52,746 bases of DNA from a virus, in the IMG/VR virus record IMGVR_UViG_3300005264_000083, positions 1 through 52,746 of that record; one strand, 5' to 3'. Numbering within the stretch: the stretch's first letter is position 1; the number at the start of each line of letters is the position of its first letter. Below, in pieces: positions 714-39,980 of this stretch. Below the pieces are notes generated by a model. That model searched no databases and was not told the origin of the DNA. It saw only the letters and a list, made by a program, of their open reading frames with translations. The position numbers and the translations under genes were made by a program.

Positions 714-790
714 ATTCTTCTCCTTTTATCGTTATATTATTGACTACACGTCTTTTATTATTATAATGTATTTTTTTCTAAAAATAAGGG

Positions 791-819
791 TTGACATTTT
801 TTCAGATTTCCTATATTAT
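791..819 (+). promoter_or_regulatory. sigma70-like promoter of plus-strand moron 1
   Basis: Perfect -35 TTGACA (791-796), 17-bp spacer, -10 TATTAT (814-819), 33 bp before the first ATG of the plus-strand cassette. The spacer (TTTTTTCAGATTT) is nearly the same as in the promoter of the second plus-strand island at 18941, suggesting common origin or a phage-specific promoter class. Confidence 0.75.
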
Positions 820-851
820 ATAATTATAGGATGGATATAAAGGAGGTCAAA

Positions 852-1040
852 ATGGCAAGAAAATCTATCGTTCAAAAAGCACACGAAGAATTATTACAAA
901 ACCCAAAATATGTCCAAAAACTTAAAATTTTAGATATAATTAAAAAGAAATATGACAAAGCTTACAATTCAAAAGATAATCAGAAAATAGAACATTATGA
1001 CAAATATTATAAAAAAGTAATGAAAATAATAGTAGCATAG
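852..1040 (+). CDS. hypothetical protein of plus-strand moron 1
   Basis: 62 aa, starting MARKSIVQKAHEELL at ATG 852, chosen because AAAGGAGG lies just upstream; a longer in-frame start at 831 would lie upstream of this SD. Lysine- and tyrosine-rich, mostly helical, pI basic. No family recognised. It is transcribed against the surrounding tail genes from its own promoter at 791 and is followed at 9 bp by another plus-strand gene. Confidence 0.7.
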   Translation: MARKSIVQKAHEELLQNPKYVQKLKILDIIKKKYDKAYNSKDNQKIEHYDKYYKKVMKIIVA

Positions 1041-1049
1041 GAGGTTAAA

Positions 1050-1364
1050 ATGGGTATTTCATGTAATGGTATTTGGATGCAAGCACCTAAGTTTTCTGAA
1101 GAAACAAAGCAGTTTATTAAAGATTCTCTTAAAGAAGCTCGCTTAGAATTTATAGCTCAAAATAGAGAAAAAATTGGTAGAAGTGGATGTTATGAAACTT
1201 GGCATAGATTTAAAGATGATGACAATATTATTAGGACAATTGAATCTGCAACTAAAGAAGGGGATTTTCTTAAAGATCCTAAAAAATGGCTATTAGCTGG
1301 ATTAGAGAATTGTGCTGATCGTGATTATTATTATATGCATGAAAAAGATTGGGGAATGGAATAA
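1050..1364 (+). CDS. hypothetical protein of plus-strand moron 1
   Basis: 104 aa, start supported by TAGGAGG upstream of ATG 1050. Soluble, mixed-charge protein with aromatic-rich C-terminus (DRDYYYMHEKDWG) and four cysteines. No family recognised. Second gene of the plus-strand cassette between tail tube and chaperone genes; its stop codon overlaps the T-tract of a minus-strand terminator, so the two opposing units share a boundary. Confidence 0.7.
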   Translation: MGISCNGIWMQAPKFSEETKQFIKDSLKEARLEFIAQNREKIGRSGCYETWHRFKDDDNIIRTIESATKEGDFLKDPKKWLLAGLENCADRDYYYMHEKDWGME

Positions 1365-2037: not shown

Positions 2038-4079
2038 TTAGGTGGAAATTTGAGCACGATCCAATGTAATTGTTGGAAGGATGAAATCAATACCTTCAAC
2101 AATTGTTACTACTACATTAATATATATAGTATTTCCTTGAACCCTAATGGCTAAATCTTTATAACCAAGACCGTCATTAGTATCATCCCCAACTATGATA
2201 TCCGCACGCTTAAAATCAGCCATTACAGCTGTAATATAAGCAACCAAATCAGCAGGAGTTGACGTCTTATTTTTCTCACCTATGAAAATTGCTTCAAGTT
2301 GTTCTCTCATAGTTCTTGCAACATAATGTCCAGCATAAAGTACTGAAGGTCTGTTGAATGCAAAATTTGAATCTTTAGAATAAGTAGCATTATGAACCAT
2401 AACTCTAACACCGCCAGAAGCTGGTTGTAATAGAGGTAAAATTCCATCTTGGATTGCAAGATCAGCACTTACTCTACTATCAAATTCCTCTAAACTTGAT
2501 GGAGTTAAACCCTGTTTCTTTCTATGCCTTACACCTTGACAATTAATATATTTACGAGTAACTGGTTGTCCAACTTCTGCACCTGCGTGCATTCCAGCTA
2601 CCAAACAAGCTGCCATAAATGGTTGTTTCCATTCAAGGTCTGCTGCTCCTGGTACTAGAATATCTTGCATTAACAAGCTTGTAAATTCACTATTAATTGC
2701 TAAACTTTTAGCTCTACATTCATCAAAAGTTCCTCTATACCCTACGTAACATTGACGTTCTTTTCTAGCTTTAGTTCCACTCATCTTACGACAATGAGTA
2801 TTAACAGCAGCAAGAATTGAATCAACATCATAAGTAGAAGCACTATCTGTTGAAGCTGCATCTTCTGCAAGATCATCAGAAGCATCTTGAGAAACTAGAG
2901 GTATGATAAAATCCAACTCTTCTTTTTCTAATTCAGTTAAAGCAGCTGAGAAATCAGAAGTTGCACTAGCACCTTTTGCTCCACCGCTTAAGAAAGTCTT
3001 TTCAATGGCATCAGGTAAACCAATATAGCTATCTCTTTCTAATTCAACTAAACCACTATTTGCATTGAAATAGTTTGCTAAAGACCAAGCATCTGCCTTG
3101 ATTTTACAAGGCTTTAATGAAGGTGAACTTGCACCCGCACTAACCACTCTATCAAGAATATTTGGATTTAGACCACCATTAACCCCAGCAGGAACACTTG
3201 CACTATAAAGGGCTTTAGAATCAATAAATTCTGCTAAAGAGTCTATAGTGTTAAAATCTGCTAAATTAATATCCATATCTTCTGCTGTAGCAGCTACTGA
3301 AGTAAGCTTTGAAGAATCGATTGAAACCTCACAACTTGAGTCATTACAACCTATTTCTAAATAAACATCCCCACCTACATCACCAGCAATATTATCACTA
3401 TCTTCTGAGACAGAATCTACTTGACGGCTAATAATTGCTCTTAGAGCTGGTTCCTGTGAAGGATTAACTAATCCAGCTGAAAGACTTAGAAAAGCTAACA
3501 AATCACTACCAGATCCTGCAATAAGTTCAGCAACCTGAGACCTACCATTTCGATGATCATTCGCATCAGCAATCTGATCAATAGTAACAATAACTGCATC
3601 ATCTAATCCAGAACTTGAAAAACTAATTTCACTAGGTAACCCAACACTCCAGTTCCCAGCATTTGCCAAAGCAGCGTCTAAAGCGGCTTTATCAGCAACT
3701 GCATCAGGAGCTGTAAAAGTATTGATTGCAGCACCTTGTTCCATAACTGAAAAACTATAACCAGTTAGATCTGTTCCTGATACATCAGCCGCAGAACCAA
3801 CTACTTGACCTAATACCGCATCTGTCTTTGTTAAAGTAGCAGCAATTAGATTTTCAGCAGAACCATAATTTAGTGATTTCAAAGAACCAAAACTAGTAGC
3901 TAAGGCTAAATTAGATTTTGAACTAGAATTTGTCTTGAAAACAAAAATACTAGATGCACCATTAACAATTCTTCCATCATTAGATGGGGCAATGATAAAG
4001 CGCCTGTAGCAGGAACTGTTTTTGTGTAAACACCTGGTACCCATATAGTTGCACCATTAAAAACAACATTAATTCCCAT
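2038..4079 (-). CDS. tail sheath protein, 1-nt frameshift near the N-terminus
   Basis: Contractile tail sheath. The uninterrupted part (from about 3999 to the stop at 2038) is roughly 660 aa. The C-terminal half has typical sheath features: a GYRGTFDEC segment, VPGAADLEWKQPF, then PSVLYAGHYVARTM and a late RADIIVGDDTNDGLGYKDL. The true start is ATG 4079, with SD AAGGAG, coding MGINVVFNGATIWVPGVYTK, a classic sheath N-terminus. That frame leaves the main frame near 3997-3999. One extra T in the TTT run (minus strand) would restore G-A-F-I-I-A-P-S-N-D-G. Because sheath is essential, a sequencing homopolymer error is the simplest reading. Residues about 50-330 are Ala/Ser/Asp-rich, probably an insertion domain. 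Confidence 0.85.
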
Positions 4080-4472: not shown

Positions 4473-5474
4473 TTAATCGTCTTTCTTTTGGGTCCCTACA
4501 GTCAAATCATCTTCACCTTCTCTAGGGTAATCCTCTTCTCTTTCTATTCTAGTCTTATATTGGCCGTCAGAGGGCTGTGGACCGGCTTCAAACTTGATTG
4601 TCCCTGTATTTATAGTGGTATCGTAACCTAATGAGTCTATAGGTACCAACTCACTATGTCTCCAGCTATTCCCGGCGACGAAATCCATCGTTAGGAACCT
4701 TGAGAACATTTGAACAGGTAAAAAGCTTGTATCCATAGCAAAATCTGAGCCTCTAAATACTTGTAATCTAATCCCTTTATTCCAAAAATTTTCTCTATTC
4801 TTATATAATATATACTTTAAAATATGATATAAGTATTTGGTAAGTAAGCTATTTTGAGTATGAACTCCTATCATTATATTCTCTCTGCTAGGAATTTCAT
4901 GTTCTGAGAATTTTCTAGTATCAATAGCACTTACTATTTTATTTCCTGACATTGAAATAACATCTAAATCAGTGTCTAACTTTATGTATTTATTGCCAGT
5001 TGTATTATTTGATTCTAAAACCCTAATTTCCGTTTCATCTGGAAATACTAACCATCTATTATAATAGACACTTGAAAGATTTACAGAATCATCTACATAA
5101 GCAATCTTTTCATCTTCATCAAAGCTTGTAAAAGCAATAGGATCTATAATCACCTCGGGATCAATATCAACTTCAGCTTCATCTGAAAAATCTCCTAAAA
5201 CATCTAAAGGAGTTTCTTCACTATCACTCTGTAAGTGTATGGAAAAACTAGGTAATTGAGTATCAGCTTGAGGAAATGCATGAAGAATATGAACTTGACC
5301 CTCAAGTAGAATTACCTTAATCTTTTCAACATCTTCGGCGAATTTAGAATTTAAAAGATCTGAAGTTAAATTATGAAAAATATCCTCTAAAGCTATATCT
5401 ACATTATTGCGGAGATCTTCTAATCCATTTCTTACTAATTGCTCAATGACCAGCTCCGATATTACAAATGGCAT
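4473..5474 (-). CDS. putative neck / tail-terminator structural protein
   Basis: 333 aa, start ATG 5474 with GGGGA upstream. Acidic mid-region (about residues 80-115), then beta-rich segments (YYNRWLVFPDETEIRVLESNN, TQNSLLTKYLYHILKYILYKN) and a charged disordered tail ending TVGTQKKDD. Its place between an HK97 gp10-like gene and the sheath is where tail-terminator or neck proteins lie. Family not identified with certainty. The preceding homing endonuclease overlaps its start by 13 bp. Confidence 0.6.
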   Translation of the reverse strand: MPFVISELVIEQLVRNGLEDLRNNVDIALEDIFHNLTSDLLNSKFAEDVEKIKVILLEGQVHILHAFPQADTQLPSFSIHLQSDSEETPLDVLGDFSDEAEVDIDPEVIIDPIAFTSFDEDEKIAYVDDSVNLSSVYYNRWLVFPDETEIRVLESNNTTGNKYIKLDTDLDVISMSGNKIVSAIDTRKFSEHEIPSRENIMIGVHTQNSLLTKYLYHILKYILYKNRENFWNKGIRLQVFRGSDFAMDTSFLPVQMFSRFLTMDFVAGNSWRHSELVPIDSLGYDTTINTGTIKFEAGPQPSDGQYKTRIEREEDYPREGEDDLTVGTQKKDD

Positions 5475-6136
5475 TTAGTTCCCCTTTCATATATAAAAAC
5501 ATATCCCTTACAAGATTTTTGTTTGCCTTTTAGACAGTTATTTATATCTGTAATCCTTAAATTTAACTCTTTAGCACAACGGGTTTGGATTTCCCACCTA
5601 CCAATAAAATACTTATCATTATAATTTTTAGGTTTCCTTCTAATATCTTTTAATTTATAAACTAAAAAAGCTTGAACATTTTTACCTTTAGAAATATTAA
5701 TCCCCCTAATTTTTTCAAAATTATTTACTTCTCTAGCGCATTGGGCCTGAATTAAATATTCTTTTAAAAATTCACAAGTATCTTTTTTATAAACTTTAAA
5801 TAATCTCCCTCCTTGAGATTTTGACATATTTTCTAACCATTTTTGACTAAACTTATTTCTTTTTCTTCCTTTTAAATATTTCCTTTGACCCCCATTTCTT
5901 ATATTATATCCCAATTCCTTAGCTTTTAAATAATCTATCCACCATACTTCAGCTTCGTTAAGTTCTTGTTTTGATTGGCAATATTCTAAAATTTCTTTTC
6001 TAAAATTTTCTTTTCCATATTTATTAATAGCTTTTTTTAATAATAAACCAGATCCTAAATAATTGGGATTGTTTTTTGAATCCTGTCCTATATAAAATTT
6101 ATTATTAATTAAATTAATTGTTTTATAAACTATCAT
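5462..6136 (-). CDS. GIY-YIG homing endonuclease
   Basis: 224 aa. N-terminal GIY-YIG domain: VYKTIN at residues 3-8, FYIGQDS at 14-20, then an E-x-x-W-W-I-DYL catalytic-glutamate helix and GYNIRNGGQ. The C-terminal half carries two NUMOD-type repeats (RLFKVYKKDTCEFLKEY-x5-QCAREV; later RCAKELNLRITDINNCLKG-x12-YVFIYE) that bind target DNA. It is a free-standing, SegA-like mobile gene wedged between two neck genes, overlapping upstream by TAATG and downstream by 13 bp. The start lacks a clear SD, consistent with translational coupling or low expression. Confidence 0.85.
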   Translation of the reverse strand: MIVYKTINLINNKFYIGQDSKNNPNYLGSGLLLKKAINKYGKENFRKEILEYCQSKQELNEAEVWWIDYLKAKELGYNIRNGGQRKYLKGRKRNKFSQKWLENMSKSQGGRLFKVYKKDTCEFLKEYLIQAQCAREVNNFEKIRGINISKGKNVQAFLVYKLKDIRRKPKNYNDKYFIGRWEIQTRCAKELNLRITDINNCLKGKQKSCKGYVFIYERGTKCHL

Positions 6137-18735: not shown

Positions 18736-18940
18736 AACTTCTTGTTATCATTGGGAATATAAAGGGAGGTATAGAGAGTATAAACTTATGAAATTATTAG
18801 CATAATAACTTATTACTCTTTATCCCATCTTCACATTCACAGTCATTTAAAGCAACACAACTAAAGGCTCTTTTGGCCTAGGTATCAATCAGCAATATAC
18901 TATATATCTATTATAATATAACTTTACTTAAAAATAATCC
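18736..18940. other. divergent intergenic region
   Basis: About 205 bp, AT-rich, between the start of the leftward virion gene (18735) and the rightward moron promoter (18941). It must hold any leftward promoter for the 18.7-13.8 kb virion block, but I see no convincing -35/-10 pair. A short AGGC...GCCT inverted repeat near 18865-18882 is too weak to call a terminator. Confidence 0.5.
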
Positions 18941-18969
18941 GTGCCATTTTCTCAGATTTGTAGTAATAC
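18941..18969 (+). promoter_or_regulatory. sigma70-like promoter of plus-strand moron 2
   Basis: -35 GTGCCA (18941-18946), 17-bp spacer, -10 TAATAC (18964-18969). Spacer (TTTTCTCAGATTTG) nearly matches that of the promoter at 791. Weaker hexamers but same architecture, followed by a matching leader with AAAGGAGGTCGAAATG. Confidence 0.65.
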
Positions 18970-18998
18970 AAGGTATAGGAGATACAAAGGAGGTCGAA

Positions 18999-19235
18999 AT
19001 GACATTCAAAATTAATCAAATAATAGATTTAGGAAAATGGGGAAATGGTCAGATATCAAAAATATACAAATCTAAAAATGGTCAAATAATGGGTGTTGGG
19101 TTTATAGTAAAAAATGAAATGTTTGGAATTGAAGTAGAAGAACGGGCAGCTCCTTTTGAAGTTAATTGGAATGGCCAAAAATGGGCAATTACTAAAAATG
19201 CAATTAAAGAAAGATTAAATCCCAATAATAGGTAA
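18999..19235 (+). CDS. hypothetical protein of plus-strand moron 2
   Basis: 78 aa; SD AAAGGAGG before ATG 18999. Beta-rich with a KWGNGQISKIYKSKNGQIMGV pattern resembling a small SH3-like/KOW-type barrel, but no family is certain. It is cotranscribed with and just upstream of the DHp-like gene, so it may act with it. Confidence 0.7.
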   Translation: MTFKINQIIDLGKWGNGQISKIYKSKNGQIMGVGFIVKNEMFGIEVEERAAPFEVNWNGQKWAITKNAIKERLNPNNR

Positions 19236-19253
19236 AATATAAAGGGGGTAATT

Positions 19254-19463
19254 ATGAGTGAATCTCAAATCAAAGAAATCAGAGAATTTCTACATGATCT
19301 TAAAAATCCTATTTCAGTAATAACTGGATACTTGGAATTAGTAGAAGAAATGTCTAAGAATAAGGAAATAAAAGAGGCCCTATCAATTATTGAAGAACAA
19401 TCTAATAAGGCCCGAGAATTGATTGAAAAGTATCACAAAAAGGTTAAAGAAGAGTATAAATAA
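19254..19463 (+). CDS. stand-alone histidine-kinase DHp (HisKA)-like domain protein
   Basis: 69 aa, SD AAAGGGGG upstream of ATG 19254. Residues 12-31 read FLHDLKNPISVITGYLELVE: a canonical H-box (H14-D-L-K-N-P) of histidine-kinase dimerisation/phosphoacceptor domains, followed by a second helix (37-66) to complete the helical hairpin. No ATP-binding (HATPase), sensor or membrane region is present. A dimer would form a four-helix bundle like Spo0B or an HPt, able in principle to accept or pass phosphate or to pair with a host kinase. Its 3' end overlaps the opposing virion gene by 20 bp. Confidence 0.7.
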   Translation: MSESQIKEIREFLHDLKNPISVITGYLELVEEMSKNKEIKEALSIIEEQSNKARELIEKYHKKVKEEYK

Positions 19464-20283: not shown

Positions 20284-20952
20284 TTACTCCTTATATTTAA
20301 AAATATAATTTTTAATAGATTTATACTTATCAGGATAATTTAAGCACCTACTTATTCTGCTAGCTGGGAGTTTTAATACCCTAGCACACTCTGCTTTATT
20401 TATCCATTCCCTCATAAACTCATTGGTATCTTTTTTATATACTAAAAATAATTTAGATCCTTTACTAATAGACATTTTTAATTTAGTTTTATTTTTCCGC
20501 TTAGTTCCTGATCTGCATTTACGTATATTTTCTACGTGTTGATCTGACAATTCTCTTCCTTTTAGTTTAATAGATATAGCTGGGCGTGAAACCCCTTTCA
20601 TCTTATTGGATATTTTATTAGATATTTCTAACATTTTATTACTTGTTTGTTTAGTTAATCCTTTATTCCAAGGAATTCTTCCACTTACACCACCCCCACC
20701 TTCACTAAAATTAGCTTCACAATATCCTAAATCTTTATAATATTTTATAAATTCTATTTCTTTTTCAAAAGCTCCTTCTTCAGTTAAATTATCCTCAATA
20801 ATTTCAACCTTATAACCTACTGAATTTACAATATTATGCCATCTGTTATTTCTAGAATATTTCTTAAAAGCTCTATTATTTTTCCCCTTACCAACATAGA
20901 AGGGAGTATTTTTGTCTAATCTAATATGTCTATAAATATAAAAATTATTCAT
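20284..20952 (-). CDS. GIY-YIG homing endonuclease with NUMOD domains
   Basis: 222 aa. GIY-YIG core: FYIYRHIRLDK at 4-14, PFYVGKGKNNRA at 17-28, then E-K-E-IEFIKYYKDLG with the catalytic glutamate. NUMOD3-like helices follow (GVSRPAISIKLKGRELSD), then a NUMOD1-like repeat (KLFLVYKKDTNEFMREW-x4-ECARVL...YIFKYK) closely related to that of the endonuclease at 5462. Inserted between two small head genes. No SD visible. Confidence 0.85.
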   Translation of the reverse strand: MNNFYIYRHIRLDKNTPFYVGKGKNNRAFKKYSRNNRWHNIVNSVGYKVEIIEDNLTEEGAFEKEIEFIKYYKDLGYCEANFSEGGGGVSGRIPWNKGLTKQTSNKMLEISNKISNKMKGVSRPAISIKLKGRELSDQHVENIRKCRSGTKRKNKTKLKMSISKGSKLFLVYKKDTNEFMREWINKAECARVLKLPASRISRCLNYPDKYKSIKNYIFKYKE

Positions 20953-24661: not shown

Positions 24662-26134
24662 TTAAATGTTAGAAGCAGCCTCATTAATGTTATCGATGAT
24701 AACGCTATAATTAGGTTTAAAAACAATAGGTGTACCATAAAATACTTGTACCCAGTGTTTATAAAGACCAATCGTTGCGAAATCAATCTTTAACATAGGA
24801 GTTAACTGACGAAGTGTCATACTGTCAGCATCAGCTTGTAGTAAGTAAGCCTGTGAACTACCTGGTTTCATGTTGTTTAAGTCAATGAAAGGAGTAGTAG
24901 CGGCAGCACGAAGTACATAACCGATAAATTTGGCTGTAGAAGCAGCACCATCTTTTTCAGAACGATAAACTGCATAAGCATCAGGAGTAACACCAGAAGC
25001 AGGATCCGCAATGTTGATCTGAACTCTATCACCAGCAGCTACTGTAATAGCAGCTGAATCAACAGGAGCACTCTCACCATTCTTATTTACAGAAGCAACT
25101 CTGTAAATGTAATCACCAGCTTCAAGATCTGTGTTAGCTGCATTTGTATCAACTTCAACTGCACTTGCAGGAGCATTAGGAGTTGAGCTATTGTCAGCTA
25201 CGCCACGAGATTTTGATTTAGGGGTTAGGAACCTTGAACTCATTAAGTCAATCATGCCAAGACAAGTATACATTCCAGGAACTACTGTACCAGGACGGAT
25301 ATTACCTTTACCATCATTGAAACGTTCTTTAGGATAATAAGATCTTGAGAAATCACTGTGAGCTTTAGGAGAAAGTAAAAGTCTGTCTGGAGCACCGAAG
25401 TCCTCAAGAGCAACTCTGCAGCTTTCTTCAATAGCTTCAGGGCTCAAAATCTGATCGTCCATAGAAACAACATGAGAAAGTTCATCACCAAAACCAGCGA
25501 AATCTTTCTGTTTAAACTGCTCTTCATTAAAACCACGTCTTAACTGATTATCAATTCCTCTAAATGCATAGAATTCATTATCAAAAGCAGCACTTCCATC
25601 GAACTCACCATCAACAGAGAAAAAACCAGAACCTGAAAAACAGGCACGTTCAATTTCTCTCAAAAGGTATGATACGCCATTCTTAGTTTCTTTAGCAATT
25701 ACATCGCCATGTCCACTACTAACTTGTGTCATAACATGATGGATTCTTTTCTTTACACCTAAGTACTTGACGATCTCGAAACGTCTGTTGTACTGTGCAT
25801 CTTCTTCTCTTGGTTCTTCATCTGACTCTTCGATCCACGCTGTTCCAGCTCCGCCCATTTTTGATTGAAGAGAATACTCTTCGACCAAGTTATAAGCACG
25901 AGATTTGGAAAGCATATTAAAAAGAATCACGTGTTTGTCTATCTCGGAAACAATTTTTAGGGTAGGTTCTAGAGACTCAGTCATAAACACACCACCGCCT
26001 GTTAAGCTATCTGGTGTACCTGTATATTGAGGACCCCCAGGATTTAAAGCCTTATTAAGACTTTCAACTTCCTGATTAGTACCTGTGCCCATAAAAGATT
26101 CATTGTTTGCGAGTTTTTCAATATTTTCACTCAT
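24662..26134 (-). CDS. major capsid protein (HK97 fold) with inserted Ig/FN3-like domain
   Basis: 490 aa. Head-forming subunit. Recognisable features: YNLVEEYSLQSKMGGAGTAW (81-100), RRFEIVKYLGVKKRIHHVMTQVS (117-139), VSYLLREIERACFSGSG (154-170) and RLLLSPKAHSDFS (251-263), followed after an insertion by DFATIGLYKHWVQVFYGTPIVFKP (451-474). Residues about 312-422 are an inserted beta-sandwich (AGDYIYRVASVNKNGES ... DAYAVYRSEKDG) of Ig/FN3 type that would project from the capsid. No N-terminal scaffold or protease gene lies directly upstream. Higher GC than neighbours and a strong terminator fit abundant expression. Confidence 0.85.
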   Translation of the reverse strand: MSENIEKLANNESFMGTGTNQEVESLNKALNPGGPQYTGTPDSLTGGGVFMTESLEPTLKIVSEIDKHVILFNMLSKSRAYNLVEEYSLQSKMGGAGTAWIEESDEEPREEDAQYNRRFEIVKYLGVKKRIHHVMTQVSSGHGDVIAKETKNGVSYLLREIERACFSGSGFFSVDGEFDGSAAFDNEFYAFRGIDNQLRRGFNEEQFKQKDFAGFGDELSHVVSMDDQILSPEAIEESCRVALEDFGAPDRLLLSPKAHSDFSRSYYPKERFNDGKGNIRPGTVVPGMYTCLGMIDLMSSRFLTPKSKSRGVADNSSTPNAPASAVEVDTNAANTDLEAGDYIYRVASVNKNGESAPVDSAAITVAAGDRVQINIADPASGVTPDAYAVYRSEKDGAASTAKFIGYVLRAAATTPFIDLNNMKPGSSQAYLLQADADSMTLRQLTPMLKIDFATIGLYKHWVQVFYGTPIVFKPNYSVIIDNINEAASNI

Positions 26135-26310: not shown

Positions 26311-27690
26311 CTATTTATATGAATGATAGTAGAATTCTGATGCTAAAGTGACAGCTAATACTTTGTCTTCTTGACCTAATTCACCAGCTATTACTTTGTC
26401 TTTTAGATATTTTTTGACTTCACCAATTATAGGGCCACCAGTTAAATCTAATAGAATCATTATTTCTCTTCCATCAAGTGGACTCTTAATTGGCGGGATT
26501 TGCATTTCTAAATATACATCAACTGCTTTTTTGATAAGATCCATCCCCTCATCCCACCATTCTTCTTTCATGCCTAAATAATCACATATTAGGATTTCAC
26601 ACATATCTTGGAACATAGTAGGAGACTCTTCTTTACATTCATTTATAAATTTTCTTAATGCTTTCTTAGATTTAGAGAGGTGTAATCTCATATGATTTTT
26701 AATAATCCATTTTATACGTCTGGTATCTTTAATAGGTAATTTCATATTATAACAGAACTTTTCAGCTATTTGATCAGCTCCTACTATCTGATGATCATAG
26801 AAGTGATCTATATTATTCTCATCGGTTGTTTTACAGAATGGCTTACCTGAATCATGGAGTAGCCAAGCTAATGATAATATTGGATCTTTTTTAGATGATA
26901 AATATTCTAATCCTGGAAGTGTATGATTATATACATCAAATTTATGATGTCTACAGTTTTGGGTACACTGATTCATGGGATGTAGAAATGGAAATAATTT
27001 GCATATCTCATTTACATGATTTTCAAATATTTTTTTAACATCCTGCCCTAATAATAATTTTAAAGATTCTTCTTTTACTCTTTCAGTACTACAGAATATA
27101 AGTGCATCATCTAGAAAATATTCTGCATCCATTTCACATATAGGATTTCCACTCAATCCCCCTATTTGAGAAAGAAATCTAAAGAATCTAATAGCTCTTA
27201 AATAATCCTCTTGAATTCTATTTTCACCTTTACCAACAAATCTAAGAGTTTTACTTTTAATGTCTTCCAATCCATAAATATAATCAAATACTTCCTTAGT
27301 ATTCAAATCCATATATAAAGCATTTATAGTAAAATCTCTTCTTTTAGCATCCTCTTCAAATGATGTGGTATATTCAACCTTAGTATGCCTGCCATCACAA
27401 TCTACATCCTTCCTGAGTGTTGTAATTTCATAAAAATATTTAGTATCTCCTAATTGGACTATAGCTGTTAATGTCCCATGTTTCAATCCTGTGGGAATCC
27501 AACTAATTCCACCATAATCAAATATGTCCATCATTTCTTCTGGGGTGGCTGTTGTTGCTAAGTCTATGTCATTATAAGGTCTTTTTAATAAATAATCTCT
27601 TACAAAACCCCCACAGGCAAAAGTAGGATGTTCACGATTCTCTAAAGTTTCTTGTATAATCTGAGCTCCTAAATAATAATTATTCTCCAT
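26311..27690 (-). CDS. cca: CCA-adding tRNA nucleotidyltransferase
   Basis: 459 aa, class II nucleotidyltransferase that builds or repairs the 3' CCA of tRNAs. Motifs: CGGFVRD (26-32), metal-binding D41-I-D43 (NDIDLA), RRDFTINALYMD, YLRAIRFFRF, and a C-terminal HD domain (LLHDSGKP, then H-R-H-x-like KNHMRLH). Length and order match bacterial CCA enzymes with HD domain. It belongs to the tRNA/RNA-repair theme of this genome (RlaP, RNA ligase, RtcB remnant). The start overlaps the upstream gene by 11 bp. Confidence 0.9.
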   Translation of the reverse strand: MENNYYLGAQIIQETLENREHPTFACGGFVRDYLLKRPYNDIDLATTATPEEMMDIFDYGGISWIPTGLKHGTLTAIVQLGDTKYFYEITTLRKDVDCDGRHTKVEYTTSFEEDAKRRDFTINALYMDLNTKEVFDYIYGLEDIKSKTLRFVGKGENRIQEDYLRAIRFFRFLSQIGGLSGNPICEMDAEYFLDDALIFCSTERVKEESLKLLLGQDVKKIFENHVNEICKLFPFLHPMNQCTQNCRHHKFDVYNHTLPGLEYLSSKKDPILSLAWLLHDSGKPFCKTTDENNIDHFYDHQIVGADQIAEKFCYNMKLPIKDTRRIKWIIKNHMRLHLSKSKKALRKFINECKEESPTMFQDMCEILICDYLGMKEEWWDEGMDLIKKAVDVYLEMQIPPIKSPLDGREIMILLDLTGGPIIGEVKKYLKDKVIAGELGQEDKVLAVTLASEFYYHSYK

Positions 27691-28488: not shown

Positions 28489-28794
28489 CTATTCATCATC
28501 CCAATTTAAATCTGTTTTTATCATATCCTCCCTGTCTCTTCTAACAAACTCTTCATTTTCTTTGTCTAGCTCAATAAACTGAATATTTGGACAAACAGAA
28601 TATATTTTTTTACAGTTATCACATTGAAAATAATAGAAAAACTCTTCATCTACATGGCTATGAGTCCCACATTCACAATGAATGTCCATACACACATCAG
28701 TACCTTTCCATTGAATCCACCCAGAAGTTCCTTCATGTACAATTTCTCTTTCTTTCATCCATTCCCAGTGTTTATTCCATTCATCATAACTCAT
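28489..28794 (-). CDS. phage zinc-ribbon protein
   Basis: 101 aa. A central four-cysteine/His ribbon (CECGTHSHVDEEFFYYFQCDNCKKIY, given here in outline: C-x-C near 39, C-x2-C near 58) sits after an aromatic-rich N-terminus (WNKHWEWMKE). This small ribbon type recurs in large phages; function unknown. ATGA overlap with the ligase gene. Confidence 0.65.
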   Translation of the reverse strand: MSYDEWNKHWEWMKEREIVHEGTSGWIQWKGTDVCMDIHCECGTHSHVDEEFFYYFQCDNCKKIYSVCPNIQFIELDKENEEFVRRDREDMIKTDLNWDDE

Positions 28795-29995
28795 ACTTCC
28801 CTCCTATCTCCATGTATACATTTTACAATTGGGAACCTCAAACTATATTCACCTTTTTGATTTTTTGTTTCTTCGAAGTATTGTACTGTGATTGTCTTAC
28901 CAATAATATCTTGAGGATCATTATAATATTGTTTTCTTTCATCTAAAGTGAATCCAGATCCAACTCCAACAACATTCCCTTTGTGTTCAATATTAACATT
29001 CGTGACAGTTGTAATAGTTTCTTCTAATCCCGTATCTTTATTTATCATTCTAACTGGACCGACATCTACGCTTTTAACAACATATTCAGAATCAAACATC
29101 TTCTTTACTTTCAATAAGTTATTAGATCTTTTACCTTCATAAGGAACATCTTTTCTGATGATTAGTCCCTCCCATTTATTATCTGTGGCAAATTGAGATT
29201 TTCTTGTTAGCTGCTCTTTATCATTTATTTTAGTTTGTTCTAGAACTTCTAAATGAGGAAGATTTTCAATTTCTTGGCCCAATTCTCCCTTTAAGACTCC
29301 ATACCTTTTGGTTAGTTCAAAATGACTACTTTTATTATCAAATTCTTCGACATCTAATATATCAAATATATAATATTTTGGATTTTTAATAATATGATCT
29401 TTCTTTCTAATTTGCTTCATAATTCCCTGAAAGTCTTCATTCCCATCTTTATCTACTAAGCATACTTCTCCGTCCAATATCATATCATGCATACTTTCTT
29501 AACAATAATACATCTAACTCCATCGAGTTTTCTTGAAGCATACCAATCTTCTTTTTCAAAATCAATCTTGCCAGCCCTGTCTTCGTATTTATTAGCTAGG
29601 GCCACGTTAAATGTAGGAATACATTTTGGAAATACTTTATTTATTGATTTAGCATCCATTCTAATCTTTAGATCTTTGTCAATAATATTATAGATAAGCT
29701 CTTGATATTGTGGATATTCTTCAATATAACTATTAACCAACGCAATAGCCTTATGCCCTGTTACTTTTCTATCTTTTAATTTATCTAAAACTTCAATGAT
29801 ATTAAGATGACAATTTTCCACCAAATCTTGTCTCTTCTTAATATTCTTAGACGTAACATGAAACTGATAAAATGGATTATAAACGTAGAATAACAACTCT
29901 TTACACTGTGGATATTTAGCTAATATCTCTTTCTTCTCGTTTGATGAGTTGGTTGTATTTAATTCATTAACCATATTTTGTAAATCTGCTAACAT
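28791..29995 (-). pseudogene. ATP-dependent DNA ligase, broken by internal deletion and frameshift
   Basis: Two adjacent frames make one ligase. 29480-29995 ends with motif I, WYASRKLDGVRCI (nucleophile K156), and stops soon after. 28791-29492 resumes with motif III ILDGEVCLVD, YIFDILD, then motif IV WEGLIIRK and motif V LLKVKK, plus a C-terminal OB-like domain. Only about 20 residues separate motif I from motif III, where family members have about 40-60, and the SRxG motif Ia is absent. A deletion not divisible by three has therefore removed part of the adenylation domain. Without recoding, no active ligase can be made. Confidence 0.8.
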
Positions 29996-31185: not shown

Positions 31186-31214
31186 ATTATATAACAACTA
31201 GGAGATAATGTCAC
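31186..31214 (-). promoter_or_regulatory. sigma70-like promoter
   Basis: Minus strand: -35 GTGACA (31209-31214), 17-bp spacer, -10 TATAAT (31186-31191). The spacer starts TTATCTC and ends AGTTGTTA, resembling the other promoters found here at 791, 18941 and 34035. It overlaps the end of the Fic-like gene and drives 30936 and downstream genes. Confidence 0.7.
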
Positions 31215-31857
31215 GAACTTTCTTCAGAAATTCTTCCTCTATTTTATCTGAATCATAGACAAAACATTGGAAGTCAAGATATTCATGATATATTGGGACA
31301 AAATTCCATTGGGATAATATAGAGTTAACTTGAGCCATACAAAGGCTAAAATTAATCTTTTCAAATGGATGGGTTATTACGAATAAATACATATAGTTAG
31401 CTAGTAGTCGTAAGTCCTTAGATTTCATTAGTTTATCCATATATTCCGATAATTTATTTAAGTAACTATCGAGATATTTTGGATCGGGAAGTATTAATTG
31501 ATATGTGTCATTCTTGTTGATTAAACTATGTGTCATTCGCTCAGAAATGCCTTTTATGCGCGGCTTTAATATAGGTTCATTGGTTTGTATAATATACCAT
31601 TCTTTCTTTAAATTGGGCCGTTCTATTTCGTCTACGTTAGGGTGATTTCTGAATAAACTCTTAATGCTATCTGGTGATTTTGTACAGTTAGTATATCCAT
31701 TATAACCCTTTGAAATTATTCGGTGCATATTGATTAGCATAAATTTATAAGGAATGGTTGGGTTATTAAACCATGATAAGAAATAGTTGGTGGCTTTTTC
31801 TATATTCTTTAAATAAGTAGGATCCACGTTTTCTTGTGGGAATCTGGTGAACTTCAT
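31198..31857 (-). CDS. Fic/Doc-fold protein with degenerate catalytic motif
   Basis: 219 aa. Fold signature: LINMHRIISKGY (43-52), a flap-like RIKGISERMTHSL region, helix LRLLANYMYLFVITHPF and motif H163-P-F-E-K-I-N-F-S-L. Fic enzymes (AMPylators) carry HPF-x-(D/E)-GNGR-x2-R; here His, Pro, Phe and one Glu/Asn remain, but the GNGR phosphate-binding loop and final Arg are replaced. It is therefore probably catalytically dead or altered, perhaps a binding decoy or antitoxin-like protein. The start overlaps a TM gene by 92 bp, which makes the exact N-terminus uncertain. Confidence 0.6.
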   Translation of the reverse strand: MKFTRFPQENVDPTYLKNIEKATNYFLSWFNNPTIPYKFMLINMHRIISKGYNGYTNCTKSPDSIKSLFRNHPNVDEIERPNLKKEWYIIQTNEPILKPRIKGISERMTHSLINKNDTYQLILPDPKYLDSYLNKLSEYMDKLMKSKDLRLLANYMYLFVITHPFEKINFSLCMAQVNSILSQWNFVPIYHEYLDFQCFVYDSDKIEEEFLKKVRDIIS

Positions 31858-33011: not shown

Positions 33012-33352
33012 TTACAAACTTCCCTCTAATACCCCCTTCACAGTTTCTAATAATTCCTGTTTGCTAGAAGGTTTAGTTAAAACAAAATCACTTACAGCAT
33101 CAGTCTCAGTAAGAGTTCCACTGATAATCAAACTCTTAAGCTCTTTTTCTCTCTAAGTCTTTGAATTAATTCAACTCCATTCATTTCAGGCATGTGATAA
33201 TCTGTAATTAAAAGATCATAATCCCCCATTAAAAACGCCCTATAGGCTCTTAATGGGCTTGATGTCACATTTACTCTGTAATGACCTTTTAGGAATTTCT
33301 TGTAGATTGTAAATAAATGTTTTTCATCATCCACTATTAGAACTTTTTTCAT
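33012..33352 (-). CDS. stand-alone response-regulator receiver (REC) domain, frameshifted
   Basis: Residues 1-70 read MKKVLIVDDEKHLF with acidic pair D8/D9 and LLITDYHMPEMNG with phosphoacceptor D51. The frame then ends early (stop at 33128). Restoring one A to the A5 run at 33144-33148 continues ELKSLIISGTLTETDAV and FVLTKPSSKQELLETV to a stop at 33012, supplying the conserved Ser (S78) and Lys (K94). The result is a complete 113-aa receiver without an output domain. If intact it could be a CheY-like phosphate acceptor that interferes with host signalling. Whether the indel is real or a sequencing error cannot be told here. Confidence 0.8.
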
Positions 33353-34401: not shown

Positions 34402-35448
34402 TTAAATTAATTTATACTTCTTCCAATACTTTAAATATATTTCTTGTTGTAGTTTGTCTATAGCCTTAAAGTCAGGTTTATGAGGAATACTGGAAGATTT
34501 AGCTATTTCCTGAATCTCATCATCTAAATCCTTAGACAAATCCAACAACTCCTCTAATGTATATTTACCTTCTCGTATATTCTTGAAGAACTCAGCTCTT
34601 TCACATGGAAATTTTAATTCACCGGTTTGGAGCAACTCTTTAGCCTCATCAAATAATCTGAATAAATGATAAGCAAATTTAACGTCATATCCATATTGTT
34701 CTAAATGGGTTGTTCTATGTCCATATTTATTTACTTCATTAGTTACATTTTCTAGTATAGTTTGGACGTCCATTCCATAATTATATATTTTTCCACCTAT
34801 TCTAATACAATCGGCTCCACCTTGATCTTGATAATATTTGATCCATTCATAGTTTCCCTTAATAACTACATGAGTTAATTCAACTACTTGGTCAATTTCA
34901 TCTTTATATTTCTTCTTCTTTCTTATCTCATATATATCGAGATCTCCTATTATTTGAGCTCCATTTAGTATTTCAGCTTCTAGAACCACTTGAAATTTAA
35001 CTAGTTCCTCATATCTTTTCTTTTTTCCAGATAGCTTCTTTCTTTGACTCATAGCATAACCTGAGAAGGAATGTAGTAGTTTCTTAGATATGAATAGATG
35101 TTTATTACATTCAATATCAAACCATATAGATGTTTCAAACATCTTATTCTTCTCTGGGACAAAGAAGTATTCGATTTTATTAGGGTTAGCGTCAGCTGCT
35201 AACTTAAAGAAGGTTCTAAGTGAATATAGCTTATAGTCCACATCTTTTTTAGTATTTCTTATATTTGTTTTATTTGTAGACAAATCAACTTCTCTTATAT
35301 TCTTTGTTCCCAATATATATTCAGGTGGTTCAATAAAGATACCCTCATAATCTTCATCTGATTTAGGAGTATTAGTTCCGTAAAGATGGCTACCTGTTTT
35401 AAAAAGGAATATCATATTATCTTTGGCCATTTTTTGTTCTTTAGTCAT
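34402..35448 (-). CDS. RlaP/YcgL-like nucleotidyltransferase (RNA repair)
   Basis: 348 aa. Polymerase-beta-type nucleotidyltransferase: GSHLYGT (19-25) then KSDEDYEGIFI with metal-binding D31/D33, the signature of the COG3541/RlaP family. RlaP proteins are linked in gene neighbourhoods to RNA ligases (RtcB, Rnl5/DRB0094) and proposed to repair RNA ends (Burroughs and Aravind's survey of RNA repair systems). Here an Rnl5-like ligase, an RtcB fragment and a CCA enzyme occur in the same 26-kb region. SD AGGAG before ATG 35448. Helical C-terminal half (residues 140-348). Confidence 0.75.
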   Translation of the reverse strand: MTKEQKMAKDNMIFLFKTGSHLYGTNTPKSDEDYEGIFIEPPEYILGTKNIREVDLSTNKTNIRNTKKDVDYKLYSLRTFFKLAADANPNKIEYFFVPEKNKMFETSIWFDIECNKHLFISKKLLHSFSGYAMSQRKKLSGKKKRYEELVKFQVVLEAEILNGAQIIGDLDIYEIRKKKKYKDEIDQVVELTHVVIKGNYEWIKYYQDQGGADCIRIGGKIYNYGMDVQTILENVTNEVNKYGHRTTHLEQYGYDVKFAYHLFRLFDEAKELLQTGELKFPCERAEFFKNIREGKYTLEELLDLSKDLDDEIQEIAKSSSIPHKPDFKAIDKLQQEIYLKYWKKYKLI

Positions 35449-38715: not shown

Positions 38716-38877
38716 CTAAAATTTAACAGTTTTATATTTACTCCACCTACAATCCAGACATACTTGCATAATAGCAAACCCTACTATATGCCTAAACATA
38801 CCTTTTGATGAGTAGGTTGATGGTATGGTTGTTGAATTTTCATATATATTATCTGATTTACATTTGGGACATTTCAT
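38716..38877 (-). CDS. zinc-ribbon mini-protein
   Basis: 53 aa: MKCPKCKSDNIYEN at the start and QVCLDCRWSKYK near the end form a four-Cys ribbon. Overlaps the end of the saccharopine-dehydrogenase-like gene by ATGA. Function unknown. Confidence 0.6.
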   Translation of the reverse strand: MKCPKCKSDNIYENSTTIPSTYSSKGMFRHIVGFAIMQVCLDCRWSKYKTVKF

Positions 38878-39980
38878 TTTATCTCTACTCCATTCTTTTT
38901 CAAATACCCTATGACATAATTATACAAATTTCTTTTCTCTGCAATATGCTCAGGTGCGAATACTCCTGTTTTATTGAATTGTCCAGCTGCTATTAATTTA
39001 ACCATAGCTACTACTGGTAACCCTGTTGCTCGAGCCATACTATGATTTGTTCCGTCGTGCTTATCATACATACTAAATTTATTAGTTAATTTATCATCCT
39101 TATATCCCTTAACTTGTAGTATGCTTATATCCTTATCATATTTACCTAATTTCCACTTATCTATCAACACTTTAGCTGTATTTTCTATATGTTCTGGTTT
39201 GAAGAATCCATCTTGTCTTAGATGATCCATCTTTTGCCAATGCTTTTCATACCGTAAAGTATATTCAACTAGATTCTTTAGTTTAGTTGTTTTAAGTAAG
39301 CTTCTTAATCCATCACTTATAAAAGCTAATGTATGAGTGTGTCCTGGGCCAAACCATTCATAGACATGCTCAAATGGAGTTTCTATCTCTATATGCCCAT
39401 TCTTAACATATCTAGCAGGACGAGTATATTCCTCAATGATATCTCTAGGGCTAAATACTGCTTTATATTCATCATCTTCATTCTCAGGTAATCCACCTAC
39501 AAATATCTTAATATAATCATCACCCTTTTTCTCGAATCGTTTAGTTACCATATGGCATATGCCTGGAGCAAATCCAAAATCACATACAGCTAAACCATTA
39601 TTATCTTTAGCTAATTTATCTAACTCTAGAAAATCTTCTTCCATAAATGAGAAGTCTACAACCTTCTTTCCAAATTGCATACATATAGCTAATACTGTAT
39701 GAGCCATTCTTCCTGGTAAAGCGTTTACTATTAGCTTCTCACTTGATATAATACTTTCAATTGAATCTAAATCTCCTAAGTTAGCTTGGTATTGGCATAT
39801 GTTTTTGTCTAGTTTAGGATTTTCTCTTATGTCACAGGTAGCTACTTCAAACCCTTCTTCATATAATTTATTAGCAACAAACCCACCTACCAGACCCGTT
39901 CCCAATACCATTACACGTTTCTTTTTACCTTTTTTATTCATGGCTTTTCTAAGATTGCTCATTTGCGTGTCCTTAGCCAT
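38874..39980 (-). CDS. saccharopine-dehydrogenase-like oxidoreductase
   Basis: 368 aa. N-terminal NAD(P)-binding Rossmann motif VMVLGTGLVGG (G27-x-G29-x2-G32) after a short lysine-rich leader, acidic D at strand 2 end (VATCDIRENP), then IVNALPGRMAHTVLAICMQFGKKVVDFSFMEED and AVCDFGFAPGICH, typical of the saccharopine dehydrogenase family, followed by a substrate domain and the ATGLPVVAMVKLI helix. Possible roles: lysine or polyamine-related metabolism. An auxiliary metabolic gene unusual for a phage. ATG 39980 has a poor SD; ATG 39941 is an alternative. Confidence 0.75.
   Translation of the reverse strand: MAKDTQMSNLRKAMNKKGKKKRVMVLGTGLVGGFVANKLYEEGFEVATCDIRENPKLDKNICQYQANLGDLDSIESIISSEKLIVNALPGRMAHTVLAICMQFGKKVVDFSFMEEDFLELDKLAKDNNGLAVCDFGFAPGICHMVTKRFEKKGDDYIKIFVGGLPENEDDEYKAVFSPRDIIEEYTRPARYVKNGHIEIETPFEHVYEWFGPGHTHTLAFISDGLRSLLKTTKLKNLVEYTLRYEKHWQKMDHLRQDGFFKPEHIENTAKVLIDKWKLGKYDKDISILQVKGYKDDKLTNKFSMYDKHDGTNHSMARATGLPVVAMVKLIAAGQFNKTGVFAPEHIAEKRNLYNYVIGYLKKNGVEIK

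Follow-up and report, generated by a model that had tools for sequence, protein, structure and literature searches.

Our analysis confirms, on sequence criteria, that the plus strand of an uncultivated phage record carries an intact gene for a HisKA/DHp domain of the histidine-kinase type and nothing else. The best explanation for the 69-residue product, although we give it somewhat less than an even chance, is that a homodimer dephosphorylates, or drains phosphate from, phosphorylated response regulators of the host. As far as the collections searched here go, the DHp-only form appears to be new for phages, and it is of a kind already known from bacteria and archaea.

The protein contains FLHDLKNPISVITG, in which the histidine is residue 14, and the motif H-E/D-x-x-T/N is complete (H14 D15 L16 K17 N18) and followed by P19. 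By motif, H14 would be the phospho-acceptor, D15 the kinase-type acid and N18 the phosphatase-type amide. The Pfam HisKA model (PF00512) matches with an E-value of 3.1e-10 and 40.4 bits, against a curated cut-off of 26.9; positions 10-56 of its 66 align with residues 13-59. Matches to NCBIfam kinase models, PhoR, CreC and VanS among them, are confined to the DHp stretch, Pfam SPOB_a scores just below its cut-off (E 5.1e-06, 26.4 bits; cut-off 28.1) and there is a weak match to a ChpT profile. With an HMM made from the DHp domains of bacterial kinases the protein scored 61.4 bits, while the top score among 5,000 shuffles was 14.1 and no other of the 691 frames of the window (the whole stretch of DNA analysed, 52,746 bases) scored above 4.7 bits; the kinases for this HMM were picked by BLAST similarity to the protein itself, so that the independent score is that of Pfam. 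The codon score of the gene is 0.40 in frame and negative in the other five frames, phage genes lying mostly between 0.3 and 0.6. Translation, HisKA match, codon score and a well-placed Shine-Dalgarno sequence (Table 1) together bear out the intact 69-residue frame with an H-box at H14 that the initial annotation had described.

A hairpin had likewise been anticipated, and AlphaFold2, run on the single sequence as a monomer, predicts one: two helices, spanning residues 3-35 and 37-67, with a mean pLDDT of 85. The protein has a high content of E, K and I, its C-terminal end is highly charged, and it stops at residue 69, after helix 2. A Foldseek search with this model found nothing in the PDB and two BFVD matches, neither of them significant, a two-helix hairpin being an uninformative query. 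When the PDB was searched by sequence, the top matches were designed repeat proteins, due to composition, and the true kinases SrrB and HK853 ranked lower, with E-values from 3e-4 to about 1. HATPase_c was absent from the protein and from the whole record in a search that was positive for 14 of 14 control genomes; together with the match to HisKA only, this upholds the earlier description of a stand-alone DHp domain with no HATPase part. Directly downstream is a convergent gene that overlaps the DHp gene by 20 bases. We also considered that a frameshift nearby might have truncated a kinase, and ruled this out because HATPase_c is found in no frame of the record and the convergent gene follows immediately.

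Table 1. Positions of the DHp-only gene and of other features of the window.
Feature	Position	Strand	Basis or remarks
DHp-only protein, 69 aa	19254-19463	+	Pfam HisKA, AlphaFold2 hairpin, codon score, shuffle control
Shine-Dalgarno of the DHp gene, AAAGGGGGT	19241-19249	+	Sequence; 4 nt upstream of ATG
Cassette gene 1 (P0002), 78 aa, no known family	18999-19235	+	Codon score 0.40 in frame, negative elsewhere
Putative promoter and leader block of the DHp cassette	18923-19001	+	Local alignment to 773-854
Second leader copy	773-854	+	TTGACA 791-796, 17 nt, TATTAT 814-819, Shine-Dalgarno AAAGGAGGTC 839-848
Other antisense cassette, no known family	852-1364	+	Genes 852-1040 (62 aa) and 1050-1364 (104 aa)
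Terminator-like stem-loop	19469-19487	-	Between convergent ends; one found, 1.1 expected by chance
Stand-alone receiver (REC), two frames	33012-33343	-	Pfam Response_reg E 1.1e-13 on first part; sequence
Tail sheath	2038-4044	-	PHROG 279
Major capsid protein	24662-26134	-	PHROG 752

The DHp gene is the second of two genes in a plus-strand cassette, 18 nt after the first. Nearly all genes of the record, including all of those flanking the cassette, are on the minus strand. The first cassette gene, P0002, has no Pfam match and a PHROG match only at E 0.08, and its structure model is mostly beta and of low confidence (pLDDT 50). A relationship of P0002 to terminases was rejected: the IMG/VR match spans 21 residues, the phage match likewise falls in a terminase, and the resemblance was judged to be due to chance. 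The leader of the DHp cassette has a -35-like GTGCCA (18941-18946), a 17-nt spacer containing TTTTCTCAGATTT and a -10-like TAATAC (18964-18969), and then the Shine-Dalgarno sequence AAAGGAGGTC (18986-18995) and the ATG at 18999. Local alignment to the second copy scored 72, where the background has a mean of 20 (sd 4.6) and the next-best place in the window reaches 49. The 15-base core CATTTTYTCAGATTT has just two exact occurrences in the window, at 795 and 18945. Both leaders, of about 80 nt, have hexamers 17 nt apart around TTTT[CT]TCAGATTT, followed by AAAGGAGGTC and a start codon. Besides the DHp cassette, the only sustained plus-strand coding signal in the window is at the other antisense cassette, which the initial annotation had overlooked. 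We read the shared leader as a putative promoter of the phage, reserved for accessory genes in antisense orientation. Of the two claims first made about this setting, that of an own promoter is supported by the repeated promoter-like leader and draws nothing from a sigma-70 match at 18873-18901, which at 9/12 is within chance expectation. As for a position backwards within a virion operon, the antisense orientation stands and the operon is plausible only: the immediate neighbours of the cassette matched no family, and the sheath and capsid genes are on the same minus strand as these neighbours.

No DHp-only relative was found in PHROGs, in 50,697 phage records or in four IMG/VR scans, for which the protein and three alignments served as queries. 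The PHROGs matches are stretches inside larger profiles. The best four matches among the phage records, which were examined, are parts of full kinases on unannotated contigs that are probably contaminating bacterial DNA, and the single locus that the IMG/VR scans gave encodes a complete kinase of 293 aa, on an element that also has a site-specific recombinase. Since there is no such PHROG, and since every phage-record and viral-contig match examined belonged to a full kinase, the view that this is not a recognised phage gene class holds.

The closest bacterial matches are the DHp domains of full kinases, which share 36-43% identity with the protein over 45 residues. Searching 297 genomes from one bacterial phylum with a profile gave 13 DHp-only proteins in 12 of the genomes (loci L039-L042, L054-L061 and L063; 79-151 aa by longest ORF). 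Six were compared with Pfam HisKA, of which four scored above the cut-off, one just below it and one weakly. Nine of the 13 (L039, L040, L041 and L054-L059), from nine genomes, form a related group with a mostly common chromosomal neighbourhood, between genes that we take to be lolA/nadA and ligA. One genome, G136, has two DHp-only paralogues, L063 and L042, each beside a receiver gene. At L063 the DHp-only gene (5014-5433, 139 aa; HisKA E 3.2e-06) ends 8 nt upstream of a receiver-only gene (5442-5867, 141 aa; Response_reg E 8.8e-12), and at L042 the DHp-only gene adjoins a gene for a REC-HD-GYP protein. Cellular genomes thus do contain bare DHp domains, if rarely, and offer a parallel for the pairing of such a domain with a bare receiver. 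The supposition that a DHp-only form would be unheard of is therefore not borne out, given these 13 chromosomal proteins and the archaeal proteins with HisKA and no HATPase (PMC5847659).

The residue at H+4 is Gln in all 13 bacterial DHp-only proteins and Asn in the phage protein; the following Pro is kept in all 13, and the acid next to the His is missing in four. Retention of the amide and the Pro, together with loss of the kinase-only acid in 4/13, fits use without a kinase domain. By sequence, the phage protein seems to resemble the DHp domains of ordinary kinases more closely than it does these proteins. Its descent is not settled by an alignment of about 50 residues, and we saw no sign either way of a link by descent to the bacterial stand-alone forms.

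Comparison with known systems places the protein near several of them. It shares the H-box His, acid, Asn/Thr and Pro and the two-helix hairpin with HisKA kinases such as L010 and the Candidatus Binatia PAS kinase L003 (FLHDLKNPVTAILGY), but these carry a sensor and HATPase_c and the phage protein has neither. The bacterial stand-alone proteins likewise consist of a HisKA hairpin only, with no HATPase, and some adjoin receiver genes; they differ in the Gln at the Asn/Thr position and are 25-28% identical to the phage protein. Spo0B and ChpT are DHp-type hairpin dimers that pass phosphate between receivers. The phage protein resembles them in its hairpin and in its weak SPOB_a and ChpT profile matches, whereas they keep a degenerate ATPase-like C-terminal domain that it lacks. 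Archaeal HisKA-like proteins without HATPase, for which a phosphatase role has been proposed, also have the conserved His and no ATPase domain, but are cellular and carry N-terminal PAS/GAF sensors (PMC5847659). PIT4 is, similarly, a small phage protein directed at host two-component systems; in its case binding to kinase domains has been demonstrated, and the text of the paper mentions no HisKA domain (PMC10714779).

In the reading that we favour, the bare DHp domain would pair with itself to form a four-helix bundle which, having no ATP-binding domain, could not phosphorylate itself. The dimer may then dock on host response regulators whose receiver domains are phosphorylated, where N18 would position a water for hydrolysis of the phospho-aspartate, H14 would accept the phosphate, or both. 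The host response would thereby be kept unphosphorylated during infection, which could benefit the phage. The mechanism with the best precedent, in our assessment, is that a DHp domain by itself works as a phosphatase, which the initial annotation had not considered. The DHp domains of EnvZ and NtrB alone suffice for this both in vitro and in vivo, although with weaker activity than when the CA domain is present (PMC3510030). In HisKA kinases the two motif residues divide the work: the T/N residue is required for phosphatase activity only, and the E/D residue for kinase activity only (PMC3510030). Because of the EnvZ/NtrB precedent and the archaeal proposal, draining of host regulators is the simplest reading (PMC3510030, PMC5847659). 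A HisKA score above the cut-off, intact H14, D15, N18 and P19 and the predicted helical hairpin all argue for it, as does the conservation of amide and Pro in the bacterial DHp-only proteins; since the amide there is Gln, not Asn/Thr, the latter is an analogy and not proof. Against it, D15 is retained though a pure phosphatase would not need it, a DHp domain is a weak phosphatase when CA is missing, and the searches found no phage homologue by which conservation of H14 and N18 could be gauged.

The principal alternatives are distinguished by what the DHp protein would partner with. We consider it unlikely, but deserving of serious weight, that the protein acts as a Spo0B-like relay, carrying phosphate from a host receiver or kinase to a phage receiver, or the reverse, so that host signalling is rewired. 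The same record does encode a receiver-only protein, in which the REC signatures (DD, the phospho-acceptor Asp in TDYHMPEMNG, ISG and TKP) are kept across two frames. The bacterial DHp-only and receiver-only pair at L063, the REC-HD-GYP neighbour at L042 and the near-threshold SPOB_a match also point in this direction. However, the phage receiver changes frame near 33130-33152, in an A-rich stretch, and lies 14 kb from the DHp gene on the other strand, in a separate transcription unit without the shared leader. The receiver named in the initial annotation is real; in this record, however, a frameshift divides it, and it is distant from its supposed partner. Less probable is a more specific form, in which the DHp-only and receiver-only proteins would make up a kinase-less split phosphorelay that siphons phosphate from host regulators into the phage receiver, as a sensor/output in infection.

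Lower again in our estimation is a dominant-negative role, in which the protein would pair with a subunit of a host histidine kinase and block autophosphorylation or regulator docking. DHp is the dimerisation domain of kinases and identity to full bacterial kinases reaches 43% over 45 residues, but kinase DHp pairing is usually specific. Moreover, the HisKA match stops at position 56 of 66, the segment toward the ATP-binding domain being unrecognisable and the end charged, and a kinase blocker would not need both H14 and N18 intact. PIT4, which acts on kinase domains, offers a loose precedent (PMC10714779). More doubtful still is that the protein is a receiver-binding adaptor, or a decaying fragment of a captured kinase, that no longer transfers phosphate. 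Constraint cannot be gauged with no phage homologue found, and the DNA ligase and receiver of the record also look broken; set against this are the intact frame, good ribosome-binding site, phage-like codons, own cassette, twice-used leader and presence of all motif residues. We find it barely credible that a helical hairpin of another kind, for example a virion or coiled-coil protein, mimics DHp by chance. The E/K/I-rich composition, the simple fold and the Foldseek outcome would suit such a protein, but the HisKA score, the gap between 61.4 bits and the best shuffle, and the residue-by-residue match to the H-box all speak against it.

Direct action on bacterial two-component signalling is known for few phage proteins, and the PIT4 paper (2023) states that there had been no earlier report of any (PMC10714779). 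If draining of host regulators, or another of the phosphate-transferring roles, proves true, a natural DHp-only protein of 69 residues would be a minimal and readily testable phage switch or rewiring of host responses. The gene also raises the question of what stand-alone DHp proteins do generally, two of the bacterial ones being beside receiver genes.

The record is the complete IMG/VR entry IMGVR_UViG_3300005264_000083, a linear fragment. Judged by its sheath and major capsid matches, the source virus is an uncultivated contractile-tailed phage. Both proteins are distant from their closest relatives, the capsid being nearest to SPO1-like Bacillus phages (31% identity) and the sheath to Myxococcus phage Mx1 (27%). 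No capsid relative was found in 99 genomes of the sampled bacterial phylum, in a search run without a positive control.

Several other genes on the minus strand may be mentioned. An ATP-dependent DNA ligase (28791-29995) is spread over two frames, and the spacing between its halves looks short, so that part of it may be missing or misassembled; the ligase and receiver splits alike could stem either from assembly error or from real decay. Two free-standing homing endonuclease-like genes (5462-6136 and 20284-20952; GIY-YIG/NUMOD-like, PHROG 314) lie within the structural region. A pair of nucleotidyltransferase genes (34402-35448 and 26311-27690) comprises an RlaP-type RNA-repair enzyme by Pfam and one that, by eye, resembles a tRNA nucleotidyltransferase of the CCA-adding type and has an HD-like part; ARAGORN found no tRNA genes in the record. 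The gene at 31198-31857 encodes a Fic/DOC-family protein (Pfam 24.9 bits, cut-off 24.0), possibly an AMP-transferring effector acting on host proteins. That at 38874-39980 encodes a saccharopine dehydrogenase-family enzyme, an auxiliary metabolic gene that is unusual in a phage.
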